Positions 2 to 54,698 of a DNA stretch of 64,000 nt are shown piece after piece. The notes under the pieces were generated by a model. That model ran no database searches and was not told the origin of the DNA. It worked only from the letters and a program-made list of their open reading frames with translations. The number at the start of each line of letters is the position of its first letter. Position 1 is the stretch's first letter. Source of the stretch: Leptotrichia wadei (GTDB lineage Bacteria > Fusobacteriota > Fusobacteriia > Fusobacteriales > Leptotrichiaceae); NCBI RefSeq assembly GCF_007990445.1, contig NZ_AP019841.1, positions 1,116,001 through 1,180,000 of the forward strand. Direction: 5' to 3'. The position numbers were made by a program, and so were the translations under genes.

Positions 2-817
2 ACTAAATTAAAAAAATTTGATAGAAAAAGAATAGAATTTTATAAAGCTATGAAAAAGAAAAAATATATTAGCAGAAGTGTATTTGAAGAACTTTTAAAT
101 GGTAAAAAATTAGAACAAATATATTTGGAGGTTTTAGAAGGAAAAAGGGATTTTTCTACATTAGAAAAAAGAAAAAATCCTCGTAATTCAAGAATTAATG
201 AAAATTTTTTGGAAGAAATGTTAAATGGAACAACAGATGAAAATAAGAAAATAAATAAAGAAAATAAATTTTTTAAGATAGAAGGAAGAATACGAAATCA
301 AATAAACAGACTTGGAATTATTAGTGAAGAAGAAAATGATATAAGATTATTTGAACAAAATGAAATTAGATTTTTTGAAGAAACAGAAATAGAAATTTTT
401 GTAAAAATAAGAGATAATTTTAATATGAAAAAATTTGAACAAGGATTAAAATATATATCTTTTAATGGATATGGAAAAAGTGCGAGTACAGGTAAAGGAC
501 AATTTGAAATCATTAAAATGGAACCAGAAAAAGTATTTAGTGAAAGAAAAGCTAAGAATAGTTTTGTAGTTCTTTCTAACTATATTCCAAATAAAAAGGA
601 TAATATAGAAGTTATAAATTCTAAACTTCTTACTAAAAAACCTAAAGCATATATGACAGAAAATCCTTTTAAAGATTATTTTATTTGCTATACAGAGGGT
701 TCTTATTTTAAAGGGAATCCTGATTCAGTTAAAGGGAGAGTATTGAAAAATCTGAAAAAAGATGATGAGAAAAGTATTCAGTGTCTTATTCCTTTTATTG
801 TGGGAGTTGATGACTAA
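2..817 (+). CDS. csm4: Csm4, type III-A CRISPR effector subunit (5' end outside window)
   Basis: RAMP-family subunit of the Csm interference complex, where Csm4 normally caps the crRNA 5' end beside Cas10. The reading frame is open to the window edge, so the gene starts upstream; the ATG at 50 is internal, because the residues before it (KLKKFDRKRIEFYKAM) look like ordinary Csm4 sequence. The glycine-rich RAMP motif GYGKSASTGKGQFE lies at about residues 156-169 of the visible part. The stop codon overlaps the csm5 start (TAATG). About 271 residues are visible. The assignment rests on the motif and on the csm5 that follows; csm2, csm3 and cas10 would be expected to the left. Confidence 0.8.
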   Translation, partial: TKLKKFDRKRIEFYKAMKKKKYISRSVFEELLNGKKLEQIYLEVLEGKRDFSTLEKRKNPRNSRINENFLEEMLNGTTDENKKINKENKFFKIEGRIRNQINRLGIISEEENDIRLFEQNEIRFFEETEIEIFVKIRDNFNMKKFEQGLKYISFNGYGKSASTGKGQFEIIKMEPEKVFSERKAKNSFVVLSNYIPNKKDNIEVINSKLLTKKPKAYMTENPFKDYFICYTEGSYFKGNPDSVKGRVLKNLKKDDEKSIQCLIPFIVGVDD

Positions 818-1968
818 TGAATGTAGCAAAAAAATACAATGTGAAATTAATTCCATTGACAGATATTTATATTGGAAGTGGAAAAGATATAGAGGCATAT
901 GAATATACAGTTAAAGATAAATATATGTATAGAATTGATATGTCAGAAGTTTTTGATAAGATGAATGATTCTGAAAAAGAAAATTTTTATAAAATACTTC
1001 AAGAAAATAATTTTTTTAATATAAGAAGTTGGATATATAATAATTATAAGGAAAAATGGGGATATATTTATAAAGAAAAAGTATCTTCTGATTTTGAAAA
1101 GTATTATAAAGAGAAGTTAGATGATAAAAGTCAAGAAAATAGTCAGCTAAGTATTTCTGAATTTATCGGATATAATAATAAAAAATATATTCCAGGAAGT
1201 TCAATAAAAGGAGCGTTAAGAACAGCTTTTATATACAGTGATTTTTTAGAAAATGAGAAAAAATATGAAATAAAAAGTAGCTATGAAATAAAAAATGGGA
1301 AAAGAGTTTATAATCGAAAAGAGATTGATAAAGAAGCTAAGATAATGGAATCAGAGGTTTTATTGGCTGAAAAAGAAGACAGATATGGAAATAAAAAAGG
1401 AGAAAAACTAGGCTTAGAGCCTAAAAAAGATCCTTTCAAAACAGTTAAAATTTTTGATACAGAAGAAATTGAGTTGGAAAAATTTTCTGTAAATGTTCTT
1501 CAAATAAAAGAAGGAAATTTATTTTGTGAAGTTTTAAATGGAACATACAATGAAATAAAAAAAACTAAAAAAGTGAATTTTGAAAAAGGAATAAACTTTA
1601 ATATTATTTTAACAGAGTATTCTTTAAAAGATAATTCGATGATGGATTACAAAAAAAATTTAGGGATAAAAAAATTGTTGGATTCTTTAGATGATAAAAT
1701 GGAAAATATATTAAACTTTGAAATTGAAAAAGAAAGGGAAAAAGACAGCTACAATCTAAGAAATTTTTATGAATTTTTAAAAAAAATATTTAATAGTTTC
1801 AAGAATAAGAATATAAGTTTAGTTAGAATAGGGAAATATACAGGATTTAATGATAAAACTATAAACTTGCTAACAACAAATCCCAGTGAAAATTCAAGAA
1901 CAATTTTAGATGAAAATAATTATCCTATGGGATGGGTCTTAATAAAAGTAGAAGAGGTAGATATTTAA
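817..1968 (+). CDS. csm5: Csm5, type III-A CRISPR effector subunit
   Basis: RAMP protein that in known Csm complexes sits at the crRNA 3' end and helps recruit trimming nucleases. The diagnostic motif PGSSIKGALR is at residues 126-135, near the middle-left as usual for Csm5, and the length of 383 aa is typical. The start ATG overlaps the csm4 stop by one base (TAATG), with GGGAG at 801-805. The stop overlaps the next start in the same way, so csm4-csm5-cas6 should be translationally coupled. Confidence 0.88.
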   Translation: MNVAKKYNVKLIPLTDIYIGSGKDIEAYEYTVKDKYMYRIDMSEVFDKMNDSEKENFYKILQENNFFNIRSWIYNNYKEKWGYIYKEKVSSDFEKYYKEKLDDKSQENSQLSISEFIGYNNKKYIPGSSIKGALRTAFIYSDFLENEKKYEIKSSYEIKNGKRVYNRKEIDKEAKIMESEVLLAEKEDRYGNKKGEKLGLEPKKDPFKTVKIFDTEEIELEKFSVNVLQIKEGNLFCEVLNGTYNEIKKTKKVNFEKGINFNIILTEYSLKDNSMMDYKKNLGIKKLLDSLDDKMENILNFEIEKEREKDSYNLRNFYEFLKKIFNSFKNKNISLVRIGKYTGFNDKTINLLTTNPSENSRTILDENNYPMGWVLIKVEEVDI

Positions 1969-2708
1969 TGAATAGTTTTTTAGTTGCATTATCCCCTGTT
2001 AAAAATACTATTATTACAGAAGCTGATTACAGCATAAAAATACATGAAGCTTTTAATAAAATATTTCCTAAAATGGGTATAAATGATTTTAGAGTATCAT
2101 CTTTTTTTGGATATTTTTTTGAAAATGTTTTTATAGTTGATAAAGAAAAAAACTATAAAATAATGATAACAATAAAAAAAACAGAATATTTTTCTTCGGT
2201 CATTCAAAAATTATTTAGAAAAGCTTTAAATAAAGAAATTATTTTTATTGGTGAAAATGAGTTTAAAATAAAGGGCATAATTTCAAATGATAAAATTTGG
2301 ACTGGATACTATAATTTAGAAGAAATATTGAAAAAGGATTTTGATGAACTGACAAGTAACTTGAAAATAAAAATTGTGACACCTGTAATTGAGGAAAAAA
2401 GTAATAAATTTATATTTGAATTTGATAAAATCTTTTGTGAAATTTTAAAAAATTTTTCTGAATACTGCAACGAGAATTTTAATTGGATAAATAATAGAAA
2501 AAATTTTCTTGTTAAAAAAGAGAAATATTATATAAAAGAAATAAAAAGAAATAAAAAAATTAAAAATTCTTATTTAGGAGAGATTGAAATTAAAATAATA
2601 GAAGAACAATATAAAAATTTAATTTATGCGATATTTATATTTGCTAAATTTTATGGAATAGGGAAATTTTCTAATTACGGATTTGGACAAATAATTATAA
2701 AACTTTGA
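1968..2708 (+). CDS. cas6: Cas6-family CRISPR RNA endoribonuclease
   Basis: Cas6 cuts the precursor crRNA within each repeat. This 246-aa protein shows the Cas6 layout: two ferredoxin-like halves, a central segment resembling the start of the second domain (residues beginning KIKIVTPVIEE), a GEIEIKI strand, and the C-terminal glycine-rich loop GIGKFSNYGFGQI at about residues 227-239. I chose the ATG at 1968 because it overlaps the csm5 stop (TAATG); a longer in-frame ATG at 1932 lies inside csm5. His26 is the only obvious N-terminal candidate for a catalytic histidine, so activity cannot be assumed. A second, different Cas6 follows at 2772. Confidence 0.75.
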   Translation: MNSFLVALSPVKNTIITEADYSIKIHEAFNKIFPKMGINDFRVSSFFGYFFENVFIVDKEKNYKIMITIKKTEYFSSVIQKLFRKALNKEIIFIGENEFKIKGIISNDKIWTGYYNLEEILKKDFDELTSNLKIKIVTPVIEEKSNKFIFEFDKIFCEILKNFSEYCNENFNWINNRKNFLVKKEKYYIKEIKRNKKIKNSYLGEIEIKIIEEQYKNLIYAIFIFAKFYGIGKFSNYGFGQIIIKL

Positions 2709-2771
2709 GTTTTATAATTATTAAATAAAATTTTTTAAATAAATATGAATAAAATTTAAGGAGTTCTACTA

Positions 2772-3416
2772 GTGAAATACTCAATATTAAAATTCAAAAG
2801 AAACGAAAAACACTCAATGAGAGATCTAGAAAAATTAAGAGGCTTTTTGGCAGATAAATATAAAGAAAATGTATTATTTCATAATCATTTATCAGATGGA
2901 TATAATTATTCATATCCTAAGTTACAGTATAAATTGATTATGAATACACTTTCTGTGATGGGAATTGGTGAAGAGGTTATTGAAATAAATAAAAAACTTT
3001 TTGAGGAAGTTGATTATTTAAATATTGATGGAAATTTTATTTTTGATATTCAGAAAGAGCTGGAAATATGCGATGAAGAGATAAAATATACAGGTGATAA
3101 AATGTACGAGTATAGATTTGTGACGCCTTATTTGCCATTAAATGAAAAAAATTATGCAAAATACTTGAAAAGAGAATATACATTGGAACAAGCTATTACG
3201 AATAATATATTAGAAGTTTTAAAAGGATTGGGAATTTGGCTTGACAGAGAAAATAAAATTTATGTATCTCAAAATTTGGAAATAACATCAAGAGATTTAA
3301 AAAATGTAAATATGATAGCATTTATAGGAAGTTTCTCTGTAAATTTGAAATTTCCAGATTATTTCTCAATTGGGAAAAGGAAAAGTATTGGATTTGGAAC
3401 TTTTATAAAATCATGA
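2772..3416 (+). CDS. Cas6b-like CRISPR endoribonuclease
   Basis: This 214-aa protein resembles the Cas6b group as I recall it from archaeal proteins: an N-terminal RGFLADKYKEN segment, HNH at 37-39, then YPKLQYK around 48-54, and a C-terminal GKRKSIGFGTF glycine-rich loop. Two closely spaced histidines (His37, His39) are candidate catalytic residues; Cas6b of Methanococcus maripaludis is known to use two histidines. The start is GTG at 2772, with AAGGAG at 2760-2765. It lies 63 bp after cas6 in the same orientation and is probably co-transcribed. It is clearly not a recent duplicate of the preceding Cas6. Confidence 0.65.
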   Translation: MKYSILKFKRNEKHSMRDLEKLRGFLADKYKENVLFHNHLSDGYNYSYPKLQYKLIMNTLSVMGIGEEVIEINKKLFEEVDYLNIDGNFIFDIQKELEICDEEIKYTGDKMYEYRFVTPYLPLNEKNYAKYLKREYTLEQAITNNILEVLKGLGIWLDRENKIYVSQNLEITSRDLKNVNMIAFIGSFSVNLKFPDYFSIGKRKSIGFGTFIKS

Positions 3417-30453: not shown

Positions 30454-31044
30454 ATGAGAAAATCTAAAATTGAAAGAAATACATTTGAAACAAAAATAAA
30501 AATTGAATTGAATATTGATGGGACTGGGAAATATGAAAATAGTACAGGAGTTGGTTTTTTGGATCACATGCTTGACTTGTTTGCAAAACATGGAAGATTT
30601 GACTTGAAGGTTTATTGTGATGGAGATACACAAGTTGATGATCATCACAGTACAGAAGATATTGGGATTGCGCTTGGAAAATGTTTTTATGAGGCTTTGG
30701 GAGATTTAAAAGGTGTTAAGAGATATGGGAACTTTCTTTTGCCAATGGATGAGGCGTTAACATTGGTTGCAGTTGATTTGAGTGGGAGATATTTTTTGAA
30801 TTTTGATGTAAATATTCCGACTGAAAAAGTAGGAACTTTTGATACTGAATTGGTGGAAGAGTTTTTTATTGGATTTACACGGCATTTGAATGCAACGTTG
30901 CATATAAAGAATATGGCAGGGAAAAATTCACATCATATAATTGAGTCAATTTTTAAAGGAGTTGCTAGGGCCTTGGCAGAAGCAGTGAGTATTGATGAGA
31001 AATATAGGGATGAGATTCCTTCGACTAAGGGAGTTTTGGTTTAA
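30454..31044 (+). CDS. hisB: imidazoleglycerol-phosphate dehydratase
   Basis: A 196-aa monofunctional HisB (no histidinol phosphatase domain). Metal-binding motifs: DHMLDLFAKHGRFD, DDHHSTEDIGIALG, RHLNATLH and KNSHHIIESIFKG. It removes water from imidazoleglycerol phosphate. AAAGGA precedes the ATG. Confidence 0.95.
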   Translation: MRKSKIERNTFETKIKIELNIDGTGKYENSTGVGFLDHMLDLFAKHGRFDLKVYCDGDTQVDDHHSTEDIGIALGKCFYEALGDLKGVKRYGNFLLPMDEALTLVAVDLSGRYFLNFDVNIPTEKVGTFDTELVEEFFIGFTRHLNATLHIKNMAGKNSHHIIESIFKGVARALAEAVSIDEKYRDEIPSTKGVLV

Positions 31045-31185: not shown

Positions 31186-31881
31186 ATGAAAATACAAAAA
31201 GAATTATTTTCACGTCAAGATAAAGAATACATGAAATTTTTAAGTAAATTGACGCCAAATGTATCGGAGGATACAATTATCGGAGTGAGAATTCCTGAAA
31301 TAAGAAAATTGGCTAAAAAATTGGTAAAGAATAATGAATATGAAGATTTTTTGAAGGAGTTGCCACATAAATATTACGATGAGAATTTGTTGCATGGAGC
31401 AATTATTTCAGAGAACAAAGATTTTGAGAACTGCATTGAATTGCTTGATAATTTTTTGCCATTTATTGATAATTGGGCGGTTTGTGATACGATTTCTCCA
31501 AAAATTTTTAAAAAGCATAAAAAAGAACTGATTGAAAAAATAAAGGAATGGTCTCAATCGGATAAAACTTATACTTGCAGGTTTGGTGTAGAAATGTTGA
31601 TGACGCATTTTTTGGATGAAGACTTTAAAAAGGAATATTTGGAAATGGTAGCGAATATTCATTCTGAGGAGTATTATGTGAAAATGGTAGTTGCTTGGTT
31701 TTTTGCAACTGCACTTGCGAAACAGTGGGATTATGCGGTGATTTATTTAGAAAATAATAGATTGGATGTTTGGGTGCATAATAAGACGATACAGAAGGCC
31801 CGAGAAAGTTTGAGGATTTTGGAAGACAAGAAGGGGTATTTGAAGGGATTGAAAAGAAAGAAAGAAGGAGAATTAATTTAA
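31186..31881 (+). CDS. AlkD-family DNA alkylation repair protein
   Basis: A 231-aa protein of helical HEAT-like repeats with the AlkD-family signatures GVRIPEIRKLAKKL, DENLLHGAII, DNWAVCDTISPKIFKKH and WFFATALAKQWDY. AlkD proteins are DNA glycosylases for alkylated bases; catalytic activity is inferred from family. AGGAGGG precedes the ATG. The stop overlaps the next start (TAATG). Confidence 0.85.
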   Translation: MKIQKELFSRQDKEYMKFLSKLTPNVSEDTIIGVRIPEIRKLAKKLVKNNEYEDFLKELPHKYYDENLLHGAIISENKDFENCIELLDNFLPFIDNWAVCDTISPKIFKKHKKELIEKIKEWSQSDKTYTCRFGVEMLMTHFLDEDFKKEYLEMVANIHSEEYYVKMVVAWFFATALAKQWDYAVIYLENNRLDVWVHNKTIQKARESLRILEDKKGYLKGLKRKKEGELI

Positions 31882-32693
31882 TGAAAATCACAAAAGTTAT
31901 GTTTATAGGATTGATTTCTTTGTTGTGTTCAATAAATTCATTTACAAATACAAATTCTGAAAATGATTTTAAAAAGTATGTACTAGAAAAATTAGAAGAA
32001 ATAAAAAAAATTGATATTTATAACAATGATACGACTACTAAATATCAAAATAGGTATGAAGAAAATTCAAAAAGGTCTGGCTTAAAAAAATTTATAATTG
32101 ATAATTTTCCTGAAAAAAGTAGCGAATTATTAGAAAAAAATAATGAAAGTTGGGATGCTGTTTGGAAAAACAATATTTCTTTTCTTGATGATTTAGAAAT
32201 AAAATATGGCTTTAATACGAATTTGTATGAATTTTATAGAGAAGAAGATAATAAGACAATAAAAAAATTAATGGAGTTAGCTATAAAATTAAAAAACAAA
32301 AAAAGTTTATCTTTTGATCAATTGAGAAAGTCAAAAGAAGAATATGAAACAGAGAATAAAAAAATGAATGATAAGTATACTGAATTACATGATTTAATGG
32401 GAGATGAATATATAAATTATGGTGGAACGATTGGTTATGGATGCTATCCTAGACATTATTATAGCAATTTAGAAAATTTTCAAGAAAAATGGTTAAAATT
32501 TAGGGAAGATGAAGCATTATTTTATTCTGAATTGGAAAATAAAAAAGATGAGAAAATTTATTTTGGAAAACTTTTTGAAATAACAAAAAAACAGAACGAA
32601 TACTTTGAGGATATTATAAATAATATAAAAAAAAGCGATAGATATAAAGAAGAAAAATATATAAAAGACAAAATATTGAAATTTGGGAAATAA
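31881..32693 (+). CDS. secreted helical protein of unknown function
   Basis: A 270-aa protein with an N-terminal signal peptide (VMFIGLISLLCSINSF) and a charged, Lys/Glu-rich, coiled-coil-like mature part; a short GGTIGYGCYPRHYY segment near residue 180 is the only aromatic cluster. It is translationally coupled to alkD, which is odd for an exported product. It could be an LprI/DUF1311-like protein, but the evidence is weak. Confidence 0.6.
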   Translation: MKITKVMFIGLISLLCSINSFTNTNSENDFKKYVLEKLEEIKKIDIYNNDTTTKYQNRYEENSKRSGLKKFIIDNFPEKSSELLEKNNESWDAVWKNNISFLDDLEIKYGFNTNLYEFYREEDNKTIKKLMELAIKLKNKKSLSFDQLRKSKEEYETENKKMNDKYTELHDLMGDEYINYGGTIGYGCYPRHYYSNLENFQEKWLKFREDEALFYSELENKKDEKIYFGKLFEITKKQNEYFEDIINNIKKSDRYKEEKYIKDKILKFGK

Positions 32694-32738: not shown

Positions 32739-35057
32739 ATGGAAAAAGAGTTAGAATCTGAATCTTTAACTTTATTTGAAAATGAAAATATTGAAAAAAC
32801 TGAAGCTATAAAAGTTAAAAATACACTCTTTACTATTTTAAATGGTGAAAGAGTTGATTTAGAAATTGAAGAGATTTTCGATAGTAATAGGTTTTATGAG
32901 ATAAAGGCTGTCACTTTTTCAGCTGACGAAAGTTTTTTGAATAAATACCTAACTCCGTTTAAAAGTGTTGATTTGGTTATCGGGATACAAGATGTAGATG
33001 TCCAAGTTAGAGGATTGAAGGCTTTGAAAAATGAAACCAAGAATTTGATTGAGAGTCAAAAGGCGATTATTAAAAAGAAACAAATCCGTTTTTTTGAGAA
33101 TCTTTCAAGGGAGAATCAAGAAAGTATTGTGGAAGAAAAGTGGAAATTGAGAGTGCCAATAAGTTCGACAATTCATAGTAAATTTTATCTTTTGAAAAAT
33201 GATTCGGAGACGAGATTGATTTTTGGATCGGCTAATCTTTCATTTCAGGCTTTTTCAAACAAAAGGAACCAATTTGAAAACATTGTCATTTTTGATAATT
33301 CCCCATTATTTAACCAGTTTGAAGAATATTTTAACGAAATTACTTTAACTTGTACTGATTTTATTACGAAAGCTATAAGAAAAAAGGCGAAAAGTAAAAT
33401 TAAAGTTTTAGATGAGAATAATGATGAAAAAAAGGAAGAGAAATTTTCTGTGAGATTTACACAAGATGAAAATTCCAAATTGCAAATAGATATTTCGAAA
33501 GATATTGTTAAAGAATTTAATGAGGTAATTGTTAAGGAAGAAGATAGTGTTGCTTTGCCGATAATTGAGGAAATTAAAACGATTGATGAGAAACAGAAAA
33601 TAATTGAGAATGAGAAAAAAGAGGAACTTGAAGTTGAAAAATTTGCTTATGAATTGTCGATTAATACTATTTCACGACAGGCTAAAAAGAAAGAAAGTAT
33701 GGTTGTGACGCCTGAAACATTTGCGAAAAAGATAAAACCTAAATTGGAAATTAAAATTGCTCCAAAATTAAATCAAGCGACTTCTGAAAGAGAATTGTTA
33801 TTTTCAAAAGATACTGATCGTGGATTTGGACGTTCGGGATTATATATTGAAGAAAATGGAAACACGAAACCGTTTGGGCAAAAAGCTGGAAAAGAAGAAA
33901 TAAAAACTTCTATTGAAAGTATTGTGAAATTGATTGAGAACTATAGAAAGTATGTAATTGACTATAACGATAATTATGGTTCAAGAATTGTTGAGATAAT
34001 TTTGTATGCATTCACTTCGCCTTTTCTTCAGGATATTAGGTTTAAACTGGAATCTGATTCGGAAAAATTAGATGTTCCACAATTTCTATTTATCGGAGGA
34101 ACTGCTGGTTCAGGAAAAAGTAATTTATTGCAGATTTTACAAAAAATGCTGGGCCTTTCTAAATCAAAGCCTATTTTGTACAATAACATTATTCCGACTG
34201 GAAGAACAAAAAAAGCAGATACGATAACACAAATTCAACTATGGATGAATGAAAATAATGTAGCTCCAATTTTAATTGATGAAATTGACGAAGAATTTTT
34301 TTCAAACAAAGATAGAGGAAACAACTTGATTGTAAATGTTTCAAATCTTTCTACTTCAAATTTTGATTTTACGCCTTGTTTCATTGGAACAACAAATGCT
34401 TTGGAATATTCGTTGCCACAACGGTCACAAAGAAGATCATACTATGTGAAAAATGATAAAGTTTTTGATACGAAACTTAAGAAAAAATCTGTAAAAGCAT
34501 ATACAGAAGTGTTTGAAATTATTAATGATACTCTTTTCCAAGATTTTGTTATTCGATTTGCAGAAAAGTTGACAGATGATAATTTAAGCTGGAAAAATTA
34601 TTCTCTACACTCTTCTACAGGATTGATAGATTTCCTTTATTGGTCTCGTGAAATTTTTAAGGAATATTTTGAAATTGCTCAAATCGAAATTCCTGCTTGG
34701 TTTCCTGAAACTAGATATGATGACACTGTAGAAAATAATCAGTCTTTATGGAGAAAATTATACGAATATAATCATCAAGATTTTAAAATACAAAAAGAAA
34801 AAGGTGTATATTTATTTAAATTAAAAAGTTTAGATAGTGAAGAAGGACAAAGCAATAGATTTGGTACAAAAATTCTTCCGTCAACAAAATATTTAAATGC
34901 ATTATCACAAAAATGTAAAAATGACAATAATTCTTCAGATATTATCGAAATTAAAATAAAGGAGTTTCATGATTGGATAGGAGTGCCGTTGCCCAAGGAA
35001 TTGGAGCATAAGAAGACGATTCTAGATTTTTTTAAGAAAAAGAAAAGTGAGAATTGA
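32739..35057 (+). CDS. PLD-type nuclease fused to an AAA ATPase (putative defence protein)
   Basis: A 772-aa protein with two parts. The N-terminal half has a single phospholipase-D-like nuclease motif, IHSKFYLLK (His146, Lys148) plus GSANLS at 163-168, as in NgoFVII-type restriction nucleases and other HKD nucleases that dimerise. After a long charged linker (about 210-345), an AAA ATPase domain has Walker A GGTAGSGKSN (453-462), Walker B LIDEIDEEF (512-520), sensor-1 TTN (551-553) and arginines in QRSQRRS (561-567). The combination suggests ATP-controlled nucleic-acid cleavage. Nothing else in a known defence cassette is adjacent; it sits between hisB/alkD and an AAA/nuclease gene. No family name assigned. 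Confidence 0.75.
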   Translation: MEKELESESLTLFENENIEKTEAIKVKNTLFTILNGERVDLEIEEIFDSNRFYEIKAVTFSADESFLNKYLTPFKSVDLVIGIQDVDVQVRGLKALKNETKNLIESQKAIIKKKQIRFFENLSRENQESIVEEKWKLRVPISSTIHSKFYLLKNDSETRLIFGSANLSFQAFSNKRNQFENIVIFDNSPLFNQFEEYFNEITLTCTDFITKAIRKKAKSKIKVLDENNDEKKEEKFSVRFTQDENSKLQIDISKDIVKEFNEVIVKEEDSVALPIIEEIKTIDEKQKIIENEKKEELEVEKFAYELSINTISRQAKKKESMVVTPETFAKKIKPKLEIKIAPKLNQATSERELLFSKDTDRGFGRSGLYIEENGNTKPFGQKAGKEEIKTSIESIVKLIENYRKYVIDYNDNYGSRIVEIILYAFTSPFLQDIRFKLESDSEKLDVPQFLFIGGTAGSGKSNLLQILQKMLGLSKSKPILYNNIIPTGRTKKADTITQIQLWMNENNVAPILIDEIDEEFFSNKDRGNNLIVNVSNLSTSNFDFTPCFIGTTNALEYSLPQRSQRRSYYVKNDKVFDTKLKKKSVKAYTEVFEIINDTLFQDFVIRFAEKLTDDNLSWKNYSLHSSTGLIDFLYWSREIFKEYFEIAQIEIPAWFPETRYDDTVENNQSLWRKLYEYNHQDFKIQKEKGVYLFKLKSLDSEEGQSNRFGTKILPSTKYLNALSQKCKNDNNSSDIIEIKIKEFHDWIGVPLPKELEHKKTILDFFKKKKSEN

Positions 35058-35124: not shown

Positions 35125-36774
35125 ATGAAAAAAAAGAAAAAAGGACTAGCAATTGGAAATTCTGATTTTAAGGAAATTATACAAGAAAACGGATATTATG
35201 TCGATAAAACAAAGTTCATAGAAGATTTGCTGGAAGATTTATCAAAAGTTAAACTTTTTACAAGGCCCAGAAGATTTGGAAAAACTTTAAATTTGTCTAT
35301 GTTAAATTATTTTTTTGATGTTAGAAATGCAGAGGAAAATAGAAAATTATTTGATAATTTGTATATTTCAAAAAGTGAGTATATGGAAAATCAAGGACAA
35401 AATCCTGTAATTCTTATAAGCCTAAGAAATGCCGAGGCAGAAAATTGGGAGGATAGTTTTTTTAATATTAAGAATCTCATTTCTAATTTGTACGATAATT
35501 TTGAATATATTTCTAGCAATTTAAAAAAAAGAGATTTAGTTGAATTTGAAAATATATGGCTCAAAAAAAATAATGCAGATTGGGAAAATTCATTAAAGAA
35601 TTTATCAAGATATCTGTATGAATATTACGAAAAAAAAGTTATAATTTTAATAGATGAATATGACACTCCAATGACAAGTGCCTGGAACGAAGGATATTAT
35701 GAAAAGTCTCGAAGATTTTTTAAAAGTTTTTATTCAAATACATTGAAAGATAATGAATATTTACAATTTGCAGTTGTGACTGGGATACTTAGGGTAGCAA
35801 AGGAAGGGATTTTTTCTGGATTGAATAATTTGAAAACTTATACGGTTTTGAATAATAAATATGCAGAAAGTTTTGGATTGATTGAAACAGAAGTGAAAAA
35901 TGCCTTGGAATATTATGGATTAGAGCAAAATATTGAAAAAGTGAGAAAATGGTATAACGGCTATAAGTTTGGGAATATTCAAATTTATAATCCGTGGAGT
36001 ATAATTAACTATCTCGATGAAAAAGAAATAAACGTTTATTGGATAAATACATCAGATAACAGGCTTATTCATTCAGCAATAGAAAATGCTGATAAAGATT
36101 TATTTGACGAATTAAAAGATTTATTCAATAATGGAACAACAGAGCAAATGGTAATGGCTTCATCGAATATGGATAGATTGAAAGATCCACAAGAAGTTTG
36201 GCAGTTATTACTTTTTGGAGGGTATTTGACTGTTGAAGAAAAAATTGCTATGAATGAATATGCTTTAAAATTGCCAAATTATGAAGTTAAAACATTTTTT
36301 AAAGATATGTTTGTTCAAAATTTAGGAGGTTTTAGCAGATTTAGAGAAATGATAAAAGCATTTAAAAACTTCGATTTTGACAGATTTGAAGAACTTTTAA
36401 ATGAAATATTTTTAGTGTCAATGAGTTATCACGATACTTCTAAAACAGAAAAACCATATCATACTTTTATTTTAGGAATGATGTTGTATCTTGATAATGA
36501 GTACACAGTTTTATCGAATAATGAAACTGGCTATGGAAGAAATGATTTAGCTTTAAATCCAATAAATAAAAGAGATGTTGGATATATATTTGAATTTAAA
36601 GTTTCTAAAACTGAAGAAGAGATTGAAAAAAGAGCAGAGGAAGCATTGAGTCAAATTGAAAATAAAAAATATCCTGTTTTATTAAAGGAATGTGGAGTAA
36701 AAGAAATTGTACATATTGGAATGGCATTTTTTGGAAAAAGAGTTAAAGTGAAATATAAAGTTGTGAAAAACTAA
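35125..36774 (+). CDS. AAA-ATPase-like protein with PD-(D/E)XK nuclease domain
   Basis: A 549-aa protein of the AAA-ATPase_like plus DUF1703 family, greatly expanded in Fusobacteria and Bacteroidetes. Motifs: GYYVDKTKFIEDLL, a Walker-A-like RPRRFGKTLNLS near residues 48-59, Walker B IILIDEYDTPM near 173-183, WYNGYKFG, and a C-terminal PD-(D/E)XK domain with NDLALNP and YIFEFKVSK near 472-493. Cellular role is unproven; mobile or defence functions are suspected. It has its own promoter and AAAGGGAAAG-type ribosome site. Confidence 0.85.
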   Translation: MKKKKKGLAIGNSDFKEIIQENGYYVDKTKFIEDLLEDLSKVKLFTRPRRFGKTLNLSMLNYFFDVRNAEENRKLFDNLYISKSEYMENQGQNPVILISLRNAEAENWEDSFFNIKNLISNLYDNFEYISSNLKKRDLVEFENIWLKKNNADWENSLKNLSRYLYEYYEKKVIILIDEYDTPMTSAWNEGYYEKSRRFFKSFYSNTLKDNEYLQFAVVTGILRVAKEGIFSGLNNLKTYTVLNNKYAESFGLIETEVKNALEYYGLEQNIEKVRKWYNGYKFGNIQIYNPWSIINYLDEKEINVYWINTSDNRLIHSAIENADKDLFDELKDLFNNGTTEQMVMASSNMDRLKDPQEVWQLLLFGGYLTVEEKIAMNEYALKLPNYEVKTFFKDMFVQNLGGFSRFREMIKAFKNFDFDRFEELLNEIFLVSMSYHDTSKTEKPYHTFILGMMLYLDNEYTVLSNNETGYGRNDLALNPINKRDVGYIFEFKVSKTEEEIEKRAEEALSQIENKKYPVLLKECGVKEIVHIGMAFFGKRVKVKYKVVKN

Positions 36775-36999: not shown

Positions 37000-37635
37000 A
37001 TGATCGCAGTTATTGATTATGGAGTGGGTAATCTTTTCTCTTTGCTATCTTCATTAAATTATGTTGGACTTGATACAAAACTGACTAATGATGTTGAAGA
37101 GATTAAAAGTGCGAAAGGGATAATTTTGCCAGGAGTGGGGGCTTTTAGAGATGCTGTTTCTAATCTTGAAAAATATGGGTTAAAAGATATTTTGATAGAT
37201 GAAGCAAAAAATGGAAAGCCTTTTTTAGGAATTTGCCTTGGAATGCAAATGCTTTTTGAGAAAAGTTATGAATACGGTGAATTTGAAGGACTTGGACTTA
37301 TAAATGGAAGTGTTGAGGAAATAAAAAAATATATTCTAAAAAATTCTGATTTGAAAATACCTCATATGGGATGGAACAACTTGAAAATAAATGATGAATT
37401 TAGAAATGATAAAATTTTGAAAAATGTGAATGTTGAAAATGAAGAATATGTGTATTATGTACATTCATATTTTGCAAAAACGGATATGAAAAATATTGTT
37501 GCATATTCAGAATATGGAACAAAAATTCCTGGAATTGTAAAAAATAAAAATGTTTATGGAATGCAGTTTCATCCTGAAAAATCTGGAGATACTGGATTGA
37601 AATTATTGAAAAATTGGGGTGAATTAGCAAAGTAA
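37000..37635 (+). CDS. hisH: imidazole glycerol phosphate synthase, glutaminase subunit
   Basis: A 211-aa class I glutamine amidotransferase that delivers ammonia to HisF. The catalytic Cys79 is in GICLGMQ and the His/Glu pair is in MQFHPEKSG near the C-terminus. AAAGGAAG precedes the ATG. It begins the second his block (hisH, A, F, IE, K). Confidence 0.95.
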   Translation: MIAVIDYGVGNLFSLLSSLNYVGLDTKLTNDVEEIKSAKGIILPGVGAFRDAVSNLEKYGLKDILIDEAKNGKPFLGICLGMQMLFEKSYEYGEFEGLGLINGSVEEIKKYILKNSDLKIPHMGWNNLKINDEFRNDKILKNVNVENEEYVYYVHSYFAKTDMKNIVAYSEYGTKIPGIVKNKNVYGMQFHPEKSGDTGLKLLKNWGELAK

Positions 37636-49153: not shown

Positions 49154-50275
49154 TCAACTATTATTATTTAACTTTTTCATAAGCTGCTTATTAGCATCTT
49201 TATATAAATGAGAATAAGTATTTATAGTAGTTTGTAGATTGTCGTGCCCTAGGCGTTTGCTGATTGCGGTAATGTCGGCTTGGATAAATAACAAATATGA
49301 AGCATGGGAATGTCTAAAATCGTGAAGTCTTATTTTTTCAACACCTGCCTGGATGCTATATTTTTCTAAAATATAACGTAATTGAGAATTTTTTAAATTA
49401 AATACTTTTTGAGAGTTTAAAGTCTTTGATTTATTTAATTGTAATTCTAATTCAAATTTAGAAAAGTATGATTTTAAATCTGAAATAAGAATTTCAGGAA
49501 GAAGAACTTTTCTTATTGACCCCAAAGTTTTTGGAGTGGTTACATATTCTTTTTTATTTATTCGAGAAATAGTTTTATTTACATCTATAAATTTTTCCTC
49601 CAAATTAATGTCATCAAATGTAAGCGCCAAAACTTCTCCAATTCGTAATCCAGTCCAAAATAAGACTTTAAATATAATAATTGCGTCAGAATATTTACCG
49701 TTTTTTTCTTTATTTTTTAATTCAAGAAAATCTATAAATTTTTCAAAATCTCCAACAGACCAGATCTTCATTTCAGACCGATTTTTTTTACTTCCAAACG
49801 ATCCAATGTTTCTACAAGGGTTTTCATTCAATCCTTGATATTTTGTAGCCCAATTAAACAAACTTTTTAAAGCTGCATAAATATTAGCTTTAGAATTCTC
49901 ACTAAACGGCTTTCCATTTTCATTTTTCTTTTCCAGCATCTCGTTTTGCCATTCCCGAATCATATAGGAATTAATCTTACTAATCTCAACATCGCCAAAA
50001 AAAGGCAATATATGTAACCTAAAAAAATTTTCCACAGTATTGATAGCTGTAGGTTTATGTCTTTTGCTATAATCCTCAAAATAAAGTTCATACAACGATT
50101 GAAATGACATATTTACAGATTTAGCAATTTTTTTCTTAAACTCATATTCATATTCCTGAGCTTCCTTTTTCTTCTTAAACCCAGTTTTTTTGTACTTTTT
50201 ATTTACACCCTTGTAATCTTTAGCATAAAACATCGCATACCATGTTTTTTTATCTGCATTATAGTAAACTGGCAT
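49154..50275 (-). CDS. tyrosine recombinase (phage/ICE-type integrase)
   Basis: A 373-aa integrase with an N-terminal arm-binding domain (about 1-50), a SAM-like core-binding domain (55-150) and a catalytic domain with all key residues: Arg211 in TGLRIGEV, Lys249, His318 and Arg321 in HDFRHSH, His344 in LGHDN and Tyr354 in INTYSH. It looks intact. No phage structural, replication or conjugation genes are near, so it is probably the remaining integrase of a small or decayed island. Confidence 0.9.
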   Translation of the reverse strand: MPVYYNADKKTWYAMFYAKDYKGVNKKYKKTGFKKKKEAQEYEYEFKKKIAKSVNMSFQSLYELYFEDYSKRHKPTAINTVENFFRLHILPFFGDVEISKINSYMIREWQNEMLEKKNENGKPFSENSKANIYAALKSLFNWATKYQGLNENPCRNIGSFGSKKNRSEMKIWSVGDFEKFIDFLELKNKEKNGKYSDAIIIFKVLFWTGLRIGEVLALTFDDINLEEKFIDVNKTISRINKKEYVTTPKTLGSIRKVLLPEILISDLKSYFSKFELELQLNKSKTLNSQKVFNLKNSQLRYILEKYSIQAGVEKIRLHDFRHSHASYLLFIQADITAISKRLGHDNLQTTINTYSHLYKDANKQLMKKLNNNS

Positions 50276-51401: not shown

Positions 51402-54400
51402 TTAAAATTTATATAATTCATAAATTAATTTTTGAGGAATTTTCTTATCCAATTTCCATAATATTTTCATTGGTTTATCGCCTTGACTGCTGTAATACTT
51501 TGCATTTCCTAGATAGATAAAAGGGTTTGTCTTATTTCCATTCATAAAAGCATATTTTCGTATAAAAATGTGAACCTTAAATCCTTTTTCTTTATGATGA
51601 ATAAACATTTGTCCAACACTTGAATTATGAGAAGTTTTTGGTTGACTTATCCACTGAATAATATCATCTGCAAATAATGAATTGTCATACTTTAAATTCT
51701 CTTGAAAAATGTGCGTTTTATCAATTGTCGCAAATAAGCAAATATCTTTATCAGTATTCGCATAACCAGCTCTCCAGCTGCCTTTCGGAACTTTTGAATC
51801 CAGCAAAATTTGCAGTTCAATTCTTTTATATTTTTTATATGGAATCAAGATATTTTCATTAAATATTGAAAGATTATTGTTTTTCTTAAATTCTGATAAT
51901 CCTAAATATAGTAAATCTTCTAGCCTATTTTTAAAATTATAATTTGTGTTTTGAGAATTATCTAAATCTATAAGTTTTAAATTTATTTCATCATTATTCT
52001 CTCTTTTATTTTCAAATATTTTATTATATTTTTTTGAAATTTTAAATAATCTATTTTTTGAATTTTTTTCCAAAATTTTATCTTCAACTAATTCCGTAAA
52101 AATACGATTTATTACATATTCTTTTTGAAAATCATCTTTAATATTAAAATAATTTTTATATTCATCAGCAATAATTTCTAAATTTATAAAATCGTTGTTT
52201 ATCAAATATTTTACAATCAAATACGTAAACGGCTCTACAATCGTTAATTTTTTTTCTAAATATGCCAAAAATTCAATTTCTTCTGAATTTAATAAAGATA
52301 TTTTATTTTGTTTGATTTCAGAATCTTCAAATTGTAACTGAGCATTATAAAATGATCCTAACTTTAGGGATAACTCTTGAAATAATTCAATATTTGTATC
52401 AAAGTCACTCACTTTTAAAATTTCATTTTCTGATTTTCCAATTTCAGCTTTATAATCTAAATACATTTCCTTTAAAATATTTTTTGAACTAAAATTAATT
52501 TTTTCTATTTTTTCAATAATACGATTTTGGCAAATTCTATCTAACTCTACATAACAAGATTTTGGAATATTTGAAAATTGATTTTTAATTTCATTTATAA
52601 TTTTTTCTTTTTTTGTGAATAAAGTATCTTTATTATCAACTTCACTCGAAAAATAATTTATTAATAAATAATCTTTTTTATGATTTCCAATAAAATCAAT
52701 AATTGTCACAAAGTCTTTATTTTTAGCCTTTCTCAATCCTCTCCCAATTTGCTGTATAAAAATTGTTGACGACATTGTGGGACGTAAGAATAGCAGTAAA
52801 TTAATTGTTGGAATATCAATTCCTTCGTTTAAAATATCTACTACACATAAAATTTCAATTTTTTTGTTTTTAAATTTTTCTAAAATTTCTGATCTTTCGT
52901 TTGAACTTGTATTTGCTGTGATCACAGCTGAATTATAACCTTTTTTTGAAAATTCTTCCTTCATAAAAAAAGCATGCTCTATATTCTGGCAAAATGCAAC
53001 AGCACTTAGTTCATCACCATCGAAGCCAAATTTATTGATTTTTTCAACAATGTAATCGGTACGTGTGTTCAATAATAAATTTTCTAATAATATTTTTTCA
53101 TTGTATTTCCCATTTTTGTAAGGAATATTATCATAATTAATCGTATAATCATTTACTCCAAAATAATGAAAAGGAACAATCAAGTCTTCTTCCAAAGCCT
53201 CTTTTATTCCAATTTCATCTACTACGTTATAATCACAAAGTGATAGAATGTCTTTTCCATCCATACGTTTTGGAGTTGCTGTTAATCCTAATAGAAATTT
53301 TGGATTAAAATATGATAATGCTTTTAAATAACTATTTGACATTGAATGATGAAATTCATCAACTATAACGTAATCAAAAAAACTAGGCTTAAATTCATTG
53401 TAACAATTTCTTAAAGACTGAATCGAAGCAAAAATTATACTTTTATCAATTTCCTTTAAACCGCCATAAATTCTTCCAAATTCATTTTTGTCAATTTTAA
53501 GAATTTTTGAAAAAACATTTATTGCATTTTCTAGCAACTCTTCACGATGAGCAATGAATAAAAATTTTATATTTGAAGTTTTTGATTTTTTATCATTTAT
53601 TTTAAATAATTTATTTTCAGTATTGGAATTAATTTCAAAAAACTGTTTTATATCCATTGCGGCAAGATAAGTTTTTCCTGTACCAGTTGCAGAAATTACA
53701 AGGCCCTTTTTATTGCCGTTTATTCTAGTTTCTTTTAGTTTTTGCAAAACTCCTTTTTGCATGCTATTTGGTACAAATTCATTTTCTTGTTCAATTTTGG
53801 TTTTTCTATAATCAAAAGTATTTTGTACATTTACAGATTTTTTATATTTTTCATATTCATCAATAAAATCTTGTGTCAATTCTATCGCTTCATTACTATG
53901 CCACAACTTCTCAAACTGATTTAGCGATTTTCCATAAATATTAAAAAAACTGCTATCTGTCAGCTTCACATTCCATTCCTCTGCCGAATACAATGCACTT
54001 TGACTAATATTAGATGATCCAATTACAACACTATGGTATTTTTCTTTTTCAAATAAATATGCTTTTGTGTGAAAACTCTCGCTTGAATTATTATAAATCT
54101 TAACTTTTATGTTCTTATACGACAAAAGTTTTCGCAATGCCTTTGAATCCGTAATATTTAAATAAACAGATGTTATAATTTCTCCTTGAATCCCTTGTTT
54201 TTCAAGTTCATCCAAAGTGCTTATTAATAACTGAATCCCTGAATATCTTATAAAACTTACAATAAAATAGAATTTTTTGCAGTTTAGCAATTCCTGCTTT
54301 AAATAAATAAAAAAATTACGAAATTTAGCCTTTTCGTTTATAATTAATTCATTTATATTTCCGATTATATCTTTATCTTTTCGTTTTAATGGTAATTCAA

Positions 54401-54647
54401 AATGAAAATTAGTATTTTTATTTTTTTTATTAAATGTCTGATTTAGTAAATATAGCTGTTTTTCAGTAAATTCAATAGCTTTTTGATAATCATTTTCTCC
54501 AATAAAATTAGAAATCTTTTTTGAAAAAGTTTCCAGAACTTCAAATTCCAAATTTTCCTTGTATTCAGTCATTTCCAGAAAATTATCATTTTTTTCTTTT
54601 GCATTTACTAAATTACTTGACTCAGATTTCTTTGCTAAAATACTCAT
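51402..54647 (-). CDS. PLD nuclease - SF2 helicase - DUF3427 protein
   Basis: A 1081-aa protein. An N-terminal PLD-like nuclease domain has FHTKAYLF and GSSNISQSA (His/Lys near 193-195); it is followed by a DEAD/DEAH-like helicase with Walker A ATGTGKT (near 320), DEFHH (near 430), TATPKR, and the second helicase lobe with QQIGRGLRKA; the C-terminal DUF3427 domain has YKRIELQILLDSKVPKGSW. This architecture is widespread and thought to act in defence or DNA processing, similar to type I/III restriction motors. I prefer the ATG at 54647, just after AAGGGGTG; a GTG at 54653 is possible. Confidence 0.85.
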   Translation of the reverse strand: MSILAKKSESSNLVNAKEKNDNFLEMTEYKENLEFEVLETFSKKISNFIGENDYQKAIEFTEKQLYLLNQTFNKKNKNTNFHFELPLKRKDKDIIGNINELIINEKAKFRNFFIYLKQELLNCKKFYFIVSFIRYSGIQLLISTLDELEKQGIQGEIITSVYLNITDSKALRKLLSYKNIKVKIYNNSSESFHTKAYLFEKEKYHSVVIGSSNISQSALYSAEEWNVKLTDSSFFNIYGKSLNQFEKLWHSNEAIELTQDFIDEYEKYKKSVNVQNTFDYRKTKIEQENEFVPNSMQKGVLQKLKETRINGNKKGLVISATGTGKTYLAAMDIKQFFEINSNTENKLFKINDKKSKTSNIKFLFIAHREELLENAINVFSKILKIDKNEFGRIYGGLKEIDKSIIFASIQSLRNCYNEFKPSFFDYVIVDEFHHSMSNSYLKALSYFNPKFLLGLTATPKRMDGKDILSLCDYNVVDEIGIKEALEEDLIVPFHYFGVNDYTINYDNIPYKNGKYNEKILLENLLLNTRTDYIVEKINKFGFDGDELSAVAFCQNIEHAFFMKEEFSKKGYNSAVITANTSSNERSEILEKFKNKKIEILCVVDILNEGIDIPTINLLLFLRPTMSSTIFIQQIGRGLRKAKNKDFVTIIDFIGNHKKDYLLINYFSSEVDNKDTLFTKKEKIINEIKNQFSNIPKSCYVELDRICQNRIIEKIEKINFSSKNILKEMYLDYKAEIGKSENEILKVSDFDTNIELFQELSLKLGSFYNAQLQFEDSEIKQNKISLLNSEEIEFLAYLEKKLTIVEPFTYLIVKYLINNDFINLEIIADEYKNYFNIKDDFQKEYVINRIFTELVEDKILEKNSKNRLFKISKKYNKIFENKRENNDEINLKLIDLDNSQNTNYNFKNRLEDLLYLGLSEFKKNNNLSIFNENILIPYKKYKRIELQILLDSKVPKGSWRAGYANTDKDICLFATIDKTHIFQENLKYDNSLFADDIIQWISQPKTSHNSSVGQMFIHHKEKGFKVHIFIRKYAFMNGNKTNPFIYLGNAKYYSSQGDKPMKILWKLDKKIPQKLIYELYKF

Positions 54648-54698
54648 TTTCACCCCTTTTATTTTAATTAATTTTTACAAGAGTTTAAGTCCTTTAAA

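Follow-up and report, generated by a model that had tools for sequence, protein, structure and literature searches.

A PLD nuclease-AAA+ fusion protein of Leptotrichia wadei, a putative single-gene defence factor against invading DNA

Results

We identified, in a 64,000-nucleotide stretch of Leptotrichia wadei DNA (hereafter the window), a gene that joins a PLD nuclease to an AAA+ ATPase in one polypeptide (PLD-AAA+). Homologues that match over the whole length (15-36% identity), with the same domain order and encoded by a single gene, occur in several phyla, and the nuclease and motor residues are conserved across about 30 diverse homologues. We read PLD-AAA+ as an ATP-driven DNA nuclease that works alone to restrict invading DNA, with a probability of roughly 0.58, and it is likely to be a defence protein. 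Since many homologues have housekeeping neighbours, we regard this putative role as likely yet unproven.

Domain architecture

The open reading frame is complete, has no internal stops and is preceded by a Shine-Dalgarno sequence (AAGGAG). Its domains and neighbours are listed in Table 1.

Table 1 Features of the PLD-AAA+ gene and its locus (window positions)
Feature	Position	Strand	Basis or remark
hisB, left border of variable gap	30454..31044	+	
Upstream 270-aa protein	31881..32693	+	sub-threshold LprI-like; variable in genus
PLD-AAA+ fusion gene	32739..35057	+	772 aa; architecture common to 20-member alignment
PLD/HKD nuclease domain, residues 30-212	32826..33374	+	Pfam PLDc_2, RE_NgoFVII; AF2 fold matches
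Charged, mostly helical linker, residues 213-380	33375..33878	+	42% K/R/D/E; low pLDDT
AAA+ domain, SF3/D5/Cch-like predicted fold, residues 381-680	33879..34778	+	structure matches, motifs
C-terminal small alpha/beta region and basic, aromatic tail, residues 681-772	34779..35054	+	possible membrane anchor
Neighbour, AAA-ATPase_like (PF09820) and PDDEXK_9 (PF08011)	35125..36774	+	Pfam
hisH, right border of variable gap	37000..37635	+	

The N-terminal part of the protein scored 39.4 bits against PLDc_2 (Pfam cut-off 27) and 30.3 bits against RE_NgoFVII (cut-off 23.8), and carries the active-site residues of a single half-site (H146-S-K148, G163-S-A-N166 and E180). The C-terminal part gave only sub-threshold matches to the Pfam AAA models, and PDB sequence searches were uninformative. 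Its motifs comprise Walker A (454-461, including G459-K460-S461), Walker B (510-515, including D514-E515), sensor 1 (N553) and R565-R566, with R566 as the candidate arginine finger. A prior reading made from the sequence alone (the sequence-only reading) had described an HKD half-site with HSK and GSAN, and an AAA domain with intact Walker A/B, sensor 1 and arginines. All of these residues were found, and profile searches of each half placed the nuclease above the cut-offs and left the AAA half unnamed by Pfam. The linker between them is charged, as that reading held, but spans 168 residues rather than 130.

The same reading could not name the architecture, and the libraries agree: no family in NCBIfam, PADLOC or PHROGs covers the protein over its full length. 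PHROGs matches were at chance level, and the sole PADLOC match was to the PLD part of ZacB from Azaca (6.4e-06, profile positions 283-412 of 586). No target-recognition domain could be recognised in the protein, and a dedicated methyltransferase is lacking. A promoter and terminator scan of the locus gave no decisive signal.

Predicted structure and fold kinship

The AlphaFold model of the whole protein has a pLDDT of 72, with a confident PLD domain and AAA half and a poorly ordered linker (pLDDT about 40-60 over most of its length). In this model the PLD domain superimposes on NucT with a Z score of 11.7 (133 aligned residues, 3.0 Å), on the NgoAVII R protein with 11.3, on Nuc with 11.2 and on BfiI with 8.9; SauUSI and Tdp1 were also among the structural matches. 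With its HxK and GSxN motifs, its glutamate and its alpha/beta fold, the PLD half belongs to the NgoFVII/BfiI group of the PLD/HKD superfamily.

The AAA half modelled by itself (pLDDT 83.8, pTM 0.86) matched best to SCCmec Cch (Z 13.2, 257 aligned residues, 4.3 Å) and SaPIBov1 Rep (Z 12.9, 302 aligned residues, 7.4 Å), followed by MCM and SaPI5 (Z about 9). A separate structure comparison gave Z scores of 13.9 and 12.5 for Cch and SaPIBov1 Rep, respectively, and Foldseek searches of PDB and viral models listed PriRep1, D5-type and phage primase-helicases. The nearest folds in two independent structure libraries are thus those of Cch, SaPI Rep, MCM and D5-type helicases. Identity to these structural matches is 9-14%, so that the kinship is one of fold and function is not transferable. 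From the models, the AAA half is predicted to be an SF3/D5-type replicative helicase fold, with no match above cut-off in the sequence libraries; DUF927, Primase_Cterm and D5_N had no Pfam match in the window protein at E up to 1. Kinship of the AAA half to a replication or transposition ATPase had been named by the sequence-only reading as an argument against defence; a replication-helicase fold was indeed found, at the fold level only.

Conservation and distribution

Eight residues (H146, S147, N166, G459, K460, D514, N553 and R566) are invariant in 20 aligned homologues. Residue 148 is lysine in this alignment except in Limosilactobacillus, where it is arginine, and the aligned Limosilactobacillus copies (L016-L024) accordingly read HSR, not HSK. 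Most members retain E180, which is replaced in a Desulfobacteraceae/Dehalococcoidia branch. Ten further members, among them those of a distant group linked to BREX, retain HxK and GSAN, or motifs close to these. Against the orthologues in the genus, dN/dS of PLD-AAA+ is 0.04-0.08, next to 0.09-0.14 for hisH and 0.02-0.05 for hisB, which points to strong purifying selection comparable to that on the his genes. Protein-level change between these orthologues is smallest in the AAA part, and their dN/dS values gave no sign of an arms race. The fusion is not a chance one, because these low values accompany whole-length homologues of the same domain order in several phyla.

PLD-AAA+ is carried by 7 of the 13 genomes of the genus, the window's own included; one of the seven, G002, has a broken copy. 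Beyond the genus, genomes with homologues belong to Bacillota, Campylobacterota, Thermotogota, Thermodesulfobacteriota, Chloroflexota and a candidate phylum, and full-length copies are also plasmid-borne in Limosilactobacillus fermentum, Arcobacter and Athalassotoga. The gene is sparse: it is present in one of 397 Campylobacterota genomes and in 14 of 249 genomes of the Anaerococcus order, and most genomes of every group searched lack it. A tree of 23 members placed the window copy with Lactobacillaceae and Peptoniphilaceae of the Bacillota (support 100/100), and a copy from another family of the window's own order fell elsewhere; this pattern fits horizontal transfer. Searches of 50,697 phage records and of viral contigs found no match, and we rejected a phage origin on these grounds.

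The tail proper (residues about 757-772) is basic and aromatic. A basic, aromatic/hydrophobic stretch occupies the final 14 residues in 25 of 29 family members, compared with 62 of 382 control proteins drawn from the loci examined and 114 of 1450 internal positions; these counts come from non-independent family members and from a motif defined once the tails had been seen. MinD and similar proteins have membrane-targeting tails. The tether idea follows from this likeness, and the conserved tail hints at membrane tethering in a manner that is suggestive only.

The hisB-hisH locus

In Leptotrichia, the gap between hisB and hisH holds different genes in different genomes. Two genes upstream of PLD-AAA+, the window has a DNA_alkylation HEAT gene; in G003 a DNA-alkylation HEAT gene is the only content of the gap, in G009 it is a DUF4143 AAA gene, and in G008 it is a set of unknown genes. 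In the G005 gap, PLD-AAA and the AAA/PDDEXK gene precede a type III-A CRISPR-Cas operon (cas10, csm3, csm6 and cas1 confirmed by profile) with a four-repeat array, and apparent remnants of this operon are found in the gaps of G001 and G011. The sister-species operon, with its four repeats only, lies at L078:7513-17580. In G004 (L070:7531-11517) there are two near-identical hisB copies, 96-97% identical to that of the window, which suggests a local duplication.

In G003, the initial ~50 bases of the region of the PLD-AAA gene run directly into the 3' end of the gene for the PDDEXK protein. This scar indicates that PLD-AAA was lost in G003 and that the empty gap is the derived state. With the broken G002 copy it marks repeated loss from the gap, and PLD-AAA+ is apparently ancestral within the genus, as judged from these sequences. 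The varied contents, the G003 loss and the broken G002 copy together imply that the gap is an eroding accessory island. A recent insertion into the his operon was rejected because of the deletion scar; the sequence-only reading, which had the gene inserted into the his genes, was right about its place between hisB and hisH but not about insertion, since the gene appears ancestral and decaying.

The adjacent AAA/PD-(D/E)XK protein proposed in that reading is borne out by its two Pfam domains (Table 1). We rejected an obligate two-gene system with this neighbour, because the genes are kept or lost independently among relatives: G012 has PLD-AAA without the neighbour, G010 has the neighbour (in pieces) without PLD-AAA, and G001 keeps PLD-AAA beside a broken neighbour. 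Every neighbourhood inspected outside the genus lacks the AAA/PDDEXK gene.

Further afield, at the left edge of the window and about 29 kb from PLD-AAA+, a RAMP-superfamily gene and two Cas6-type genes (50-3416) form the terminal part of a CRISPR-Cas locus. A tyrosine recombinase of the phage integrase type (49154-50275, minus strand), 14 kb from PLD-AAA+, possibly marks an integrated element.

Neighbourhoods outside the genus and alternative functions

A distant relative in G704 (locus L107) is flanked by EVE-McrB/McrC-like genes and by DUF262, BrxL and PglZ, with the McrC-like call made by eye and no PADLOC match to it. The run L107:544-15544 (EVE-McrB, PLD-AAA relative, DUF262, BrxL, PglZ) is a composite BREX island with an unusual extra member. 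The G063 copy lies about 3 kb from a Csx1 CARF-HEPN gene, and the Athalassotoga plasmid copy adjoins an N6-methylase and a UvrD-PDDEXK helicase. The Arcobacter plasmid copy adjoins ParA/ParB with a replication initiator nearby. In Lactobacillaceae and Peptoniphilaceae the gene is mostly alone among housekeeping genes, its position conserved within a genus. The survey for defence-island neighbours found CRISPR, BREX and Csx1 genes at some loci and housekeeping genes at many; consistently housekeeping neighbours, the other observation that the sequence-only reading held against defence, are found for many homologues but not all.

These housekeeping settings, and the stable position in Limosilactobacillus and Peptoniphilus-like genomes, would suit a chromosomal DNA-maintenance enzyme, in which a hexameric helicase and a PLD nuclease deal with abnormal DNA (such as stalled forks, protein-DNA adducts or ends) and which some lineages retain for accessory repair. 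The low dN/dS, the DNA_alkylation HEAT gene in the window and the presence of Tdp1 and NucT (PLD repair or uptake enzymes) among the structural matches point the same way. The gene is, however, missing from most genomes of every group searched, its tree has a pattern of horizontal spread with plasmid-borne copies, and it has been lost repeatedly in one genus. We therefore consider DNA maintenance an unlikely account.

A protein for mobile-element replication or inter-element competition, with an SF3-type helicase behind a PLD nickase in the arrangement of HUH-SF3 Rep, appears quite improbable. The AAA half is nearest to SCCmec, SaPI and primase-helicase proteins, and the Arcobacter and Athalassotoga copies are on plasmids, the Arcobacter one by ParA/ParB and near a replication initiator. 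Against this, each of these two plasmids has initiator genes of its own, the majority of copies are on chromosomes and away from any element or integrase (the window integrase being 14 kb off), and viral or phage matches are absent. An abortive-infection effector, with an ATPase that detects infection and then frees a nuclease to degrade host DNA, would use the single-gene sensor-plus-nuclease format and the flexible linker, but is very improbable, with no partner regulator or antitoxin conserved beside the gene and an AAA half that resembles DNA motors and not STAND sensors.

Proposed function

In favour of the restriction of invading DNA we counted the type III-A CRISPR-Cas gap, the BREX/McrBC island, the Csx1 and N6-methylase/UvrD-PDDEXK loci, plasmid carriage, the sparse cross-phylum distribution, recurrent loss, the likeness of the PLD half to restriction enzymes, and the published precedents SauUSI (PMC7913695) and BrxL-HKD (PMC12839542). 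Against it we counted the housekeeping neighbours, the his-like purifying selection, the replication-protein fold of the AAA half, the absence of phage or viral carriage, and HSR in the Limosilactobacillus copies. The sequence-only reading had suggested an abortive or restriction-like antiphage role; genomic context supports defence, but nothing specific supports abortive infection.

In the proposed mechanism, the AAA+ half would most likely assemble into a ring on DNA and translocate or unwind it. The PLD halves, each with a single HKD motif and extended on the flexible charged linkers, would pair as dimers, and DNA cleavage would use the same metal-independent phosphohistidine chemistry as in the BfiI/Nuc group. 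Through its basic and aromatic tail, PLD-AAA+ may be tethered to the membrane at the point of entry of phage, plasmid or transforming DNA. Two bolder forms seem distinctly unlikely: a membrane-tethered processive ring nuclease that shreds entering DNA without a modification or sequence signal, in which an SF3-type replicative helicase would have become a defence weapon by gaining a PLD nuclease, or a Rep-like protein, PLD nickase and helicase in one, that would initiate the replication of an unknown element.

Comparison with known systems

A PLD nuclease combined with a DNA motor is a known kind of protein, and PLD-AAA+ is not a categorically new system. Our best reading, by analogy, is that the putative restriction factor works most like SauUSI or BrxL-HKD with a different motor. 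SauUSI is a type IV ATP-dependent endonuclease built from a PLD domain, an SF2 helicase and a target domain; its nuclease, coupled to a translocating motor, shreds DNA of foreign origin (PMC7913695). In both proteins a single polypeptide carries a PLD nuclease at the N terminus and, behind it, an ATP-driven DNA motor (predicted here), and the PLD halves match structurally. They differ in that SauUSI has an SF2 motor and a target domain, whereas the predicted SF3/Cch-type AAA+ half has no recognisable target domain. BrxL-HKD of type 1 BREX is an MCM-family AAA+ protein with a C-terminal HKD nuclease; BrxL-HKD proteins show a Lys-to-Arg change in the HKD motif and are believed to be active (PMC12839542). 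The two share a helicase-like AAA+ ATPase and an HKD nuclease in one chain, and the Lys-to-Arg change is that of the Limosilactobacillus branch, but the domain order is reversed and PLD-AAA+ is a stand-alone gene. Kinship with BrxL itself was rejected, with no BrxL model match, an hhalign probability of 2.6% and profile similarity limited to Walker A.

The Cch and SaPIBov1 Rep helicases (PDB 5dgk, 8tch; PMC7581432) share the AAA+ fold over about 260-300 residues, at about 10% identity; PLD-AAA+ differs in the PLD nuclease in front and in a locus that is not SCC or SaPI. NgoFVII, NgoAVII and BfiI resemble the PLD half in the RE_NgoFVII score above cut-off, the H-K-N-E residues and the fold (Z 11.3 for NgoAVII, 8.9 for BfiI), but here a charged linker and an AAA+ motor follow the PLD domain instead of a DNA-recognition domain. 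Azaca ZacB and Mokosh are PLD-containing defence systems (PMC10952713). The likeness to ZacB, a PLD nuclease in a predicted defence protein, is a weak match to the PLD part only; PLD-AAA+ does not match the rest of ZacB and lacks an SF1 helicase and partner genes. SNIPE, a membrane-bound GIY-YIG nuclease with DUF4041 that cuts phage DNA at injection (PMC13190303), is a possible analogy as a membrane-tethered nuclease awaiting incoming DNA, if the tail motif of PLD-AAA+ acts as a tether; the nuclease here is of the PLD type. We file PLD-AAA+ under none of SauUSI, BrxL, NgoFVII-type enzymes, ZacB or Cch/SaPI Rep, because each definition fails on at least one feature. An open-literature search found no description of a PLD-SF3-type AAA+ fusion, which is weak evidence.

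If the activity is real, PLD-AAA+ would add a second kind of motor (SF3/Cch-type AAA+, as opposed to SF2 or BrxL) to the PLD-nuclease restriction factors and a one-gene format missing from the defence catalogue searched, and would represent a mobile-element replication helicase turned against incoming DNA. As a single gene with clear catalytic residues, it is an easily testable candidate.

The window encodes a second PLD-motor fusion, a 1083-aa protein (51402-54653, minus strand) with a PLD nuclease, a ResIII/SF2 helicase and DUF3427. SF2 domains (ResIII/Helicase_C) are present in this protein and had no Pfam match in PLD-AAA+. Its layout is nearer to that of SauUSI, and a similar PLD-helicase open reading frame occurs in L008, from another genome of the order.
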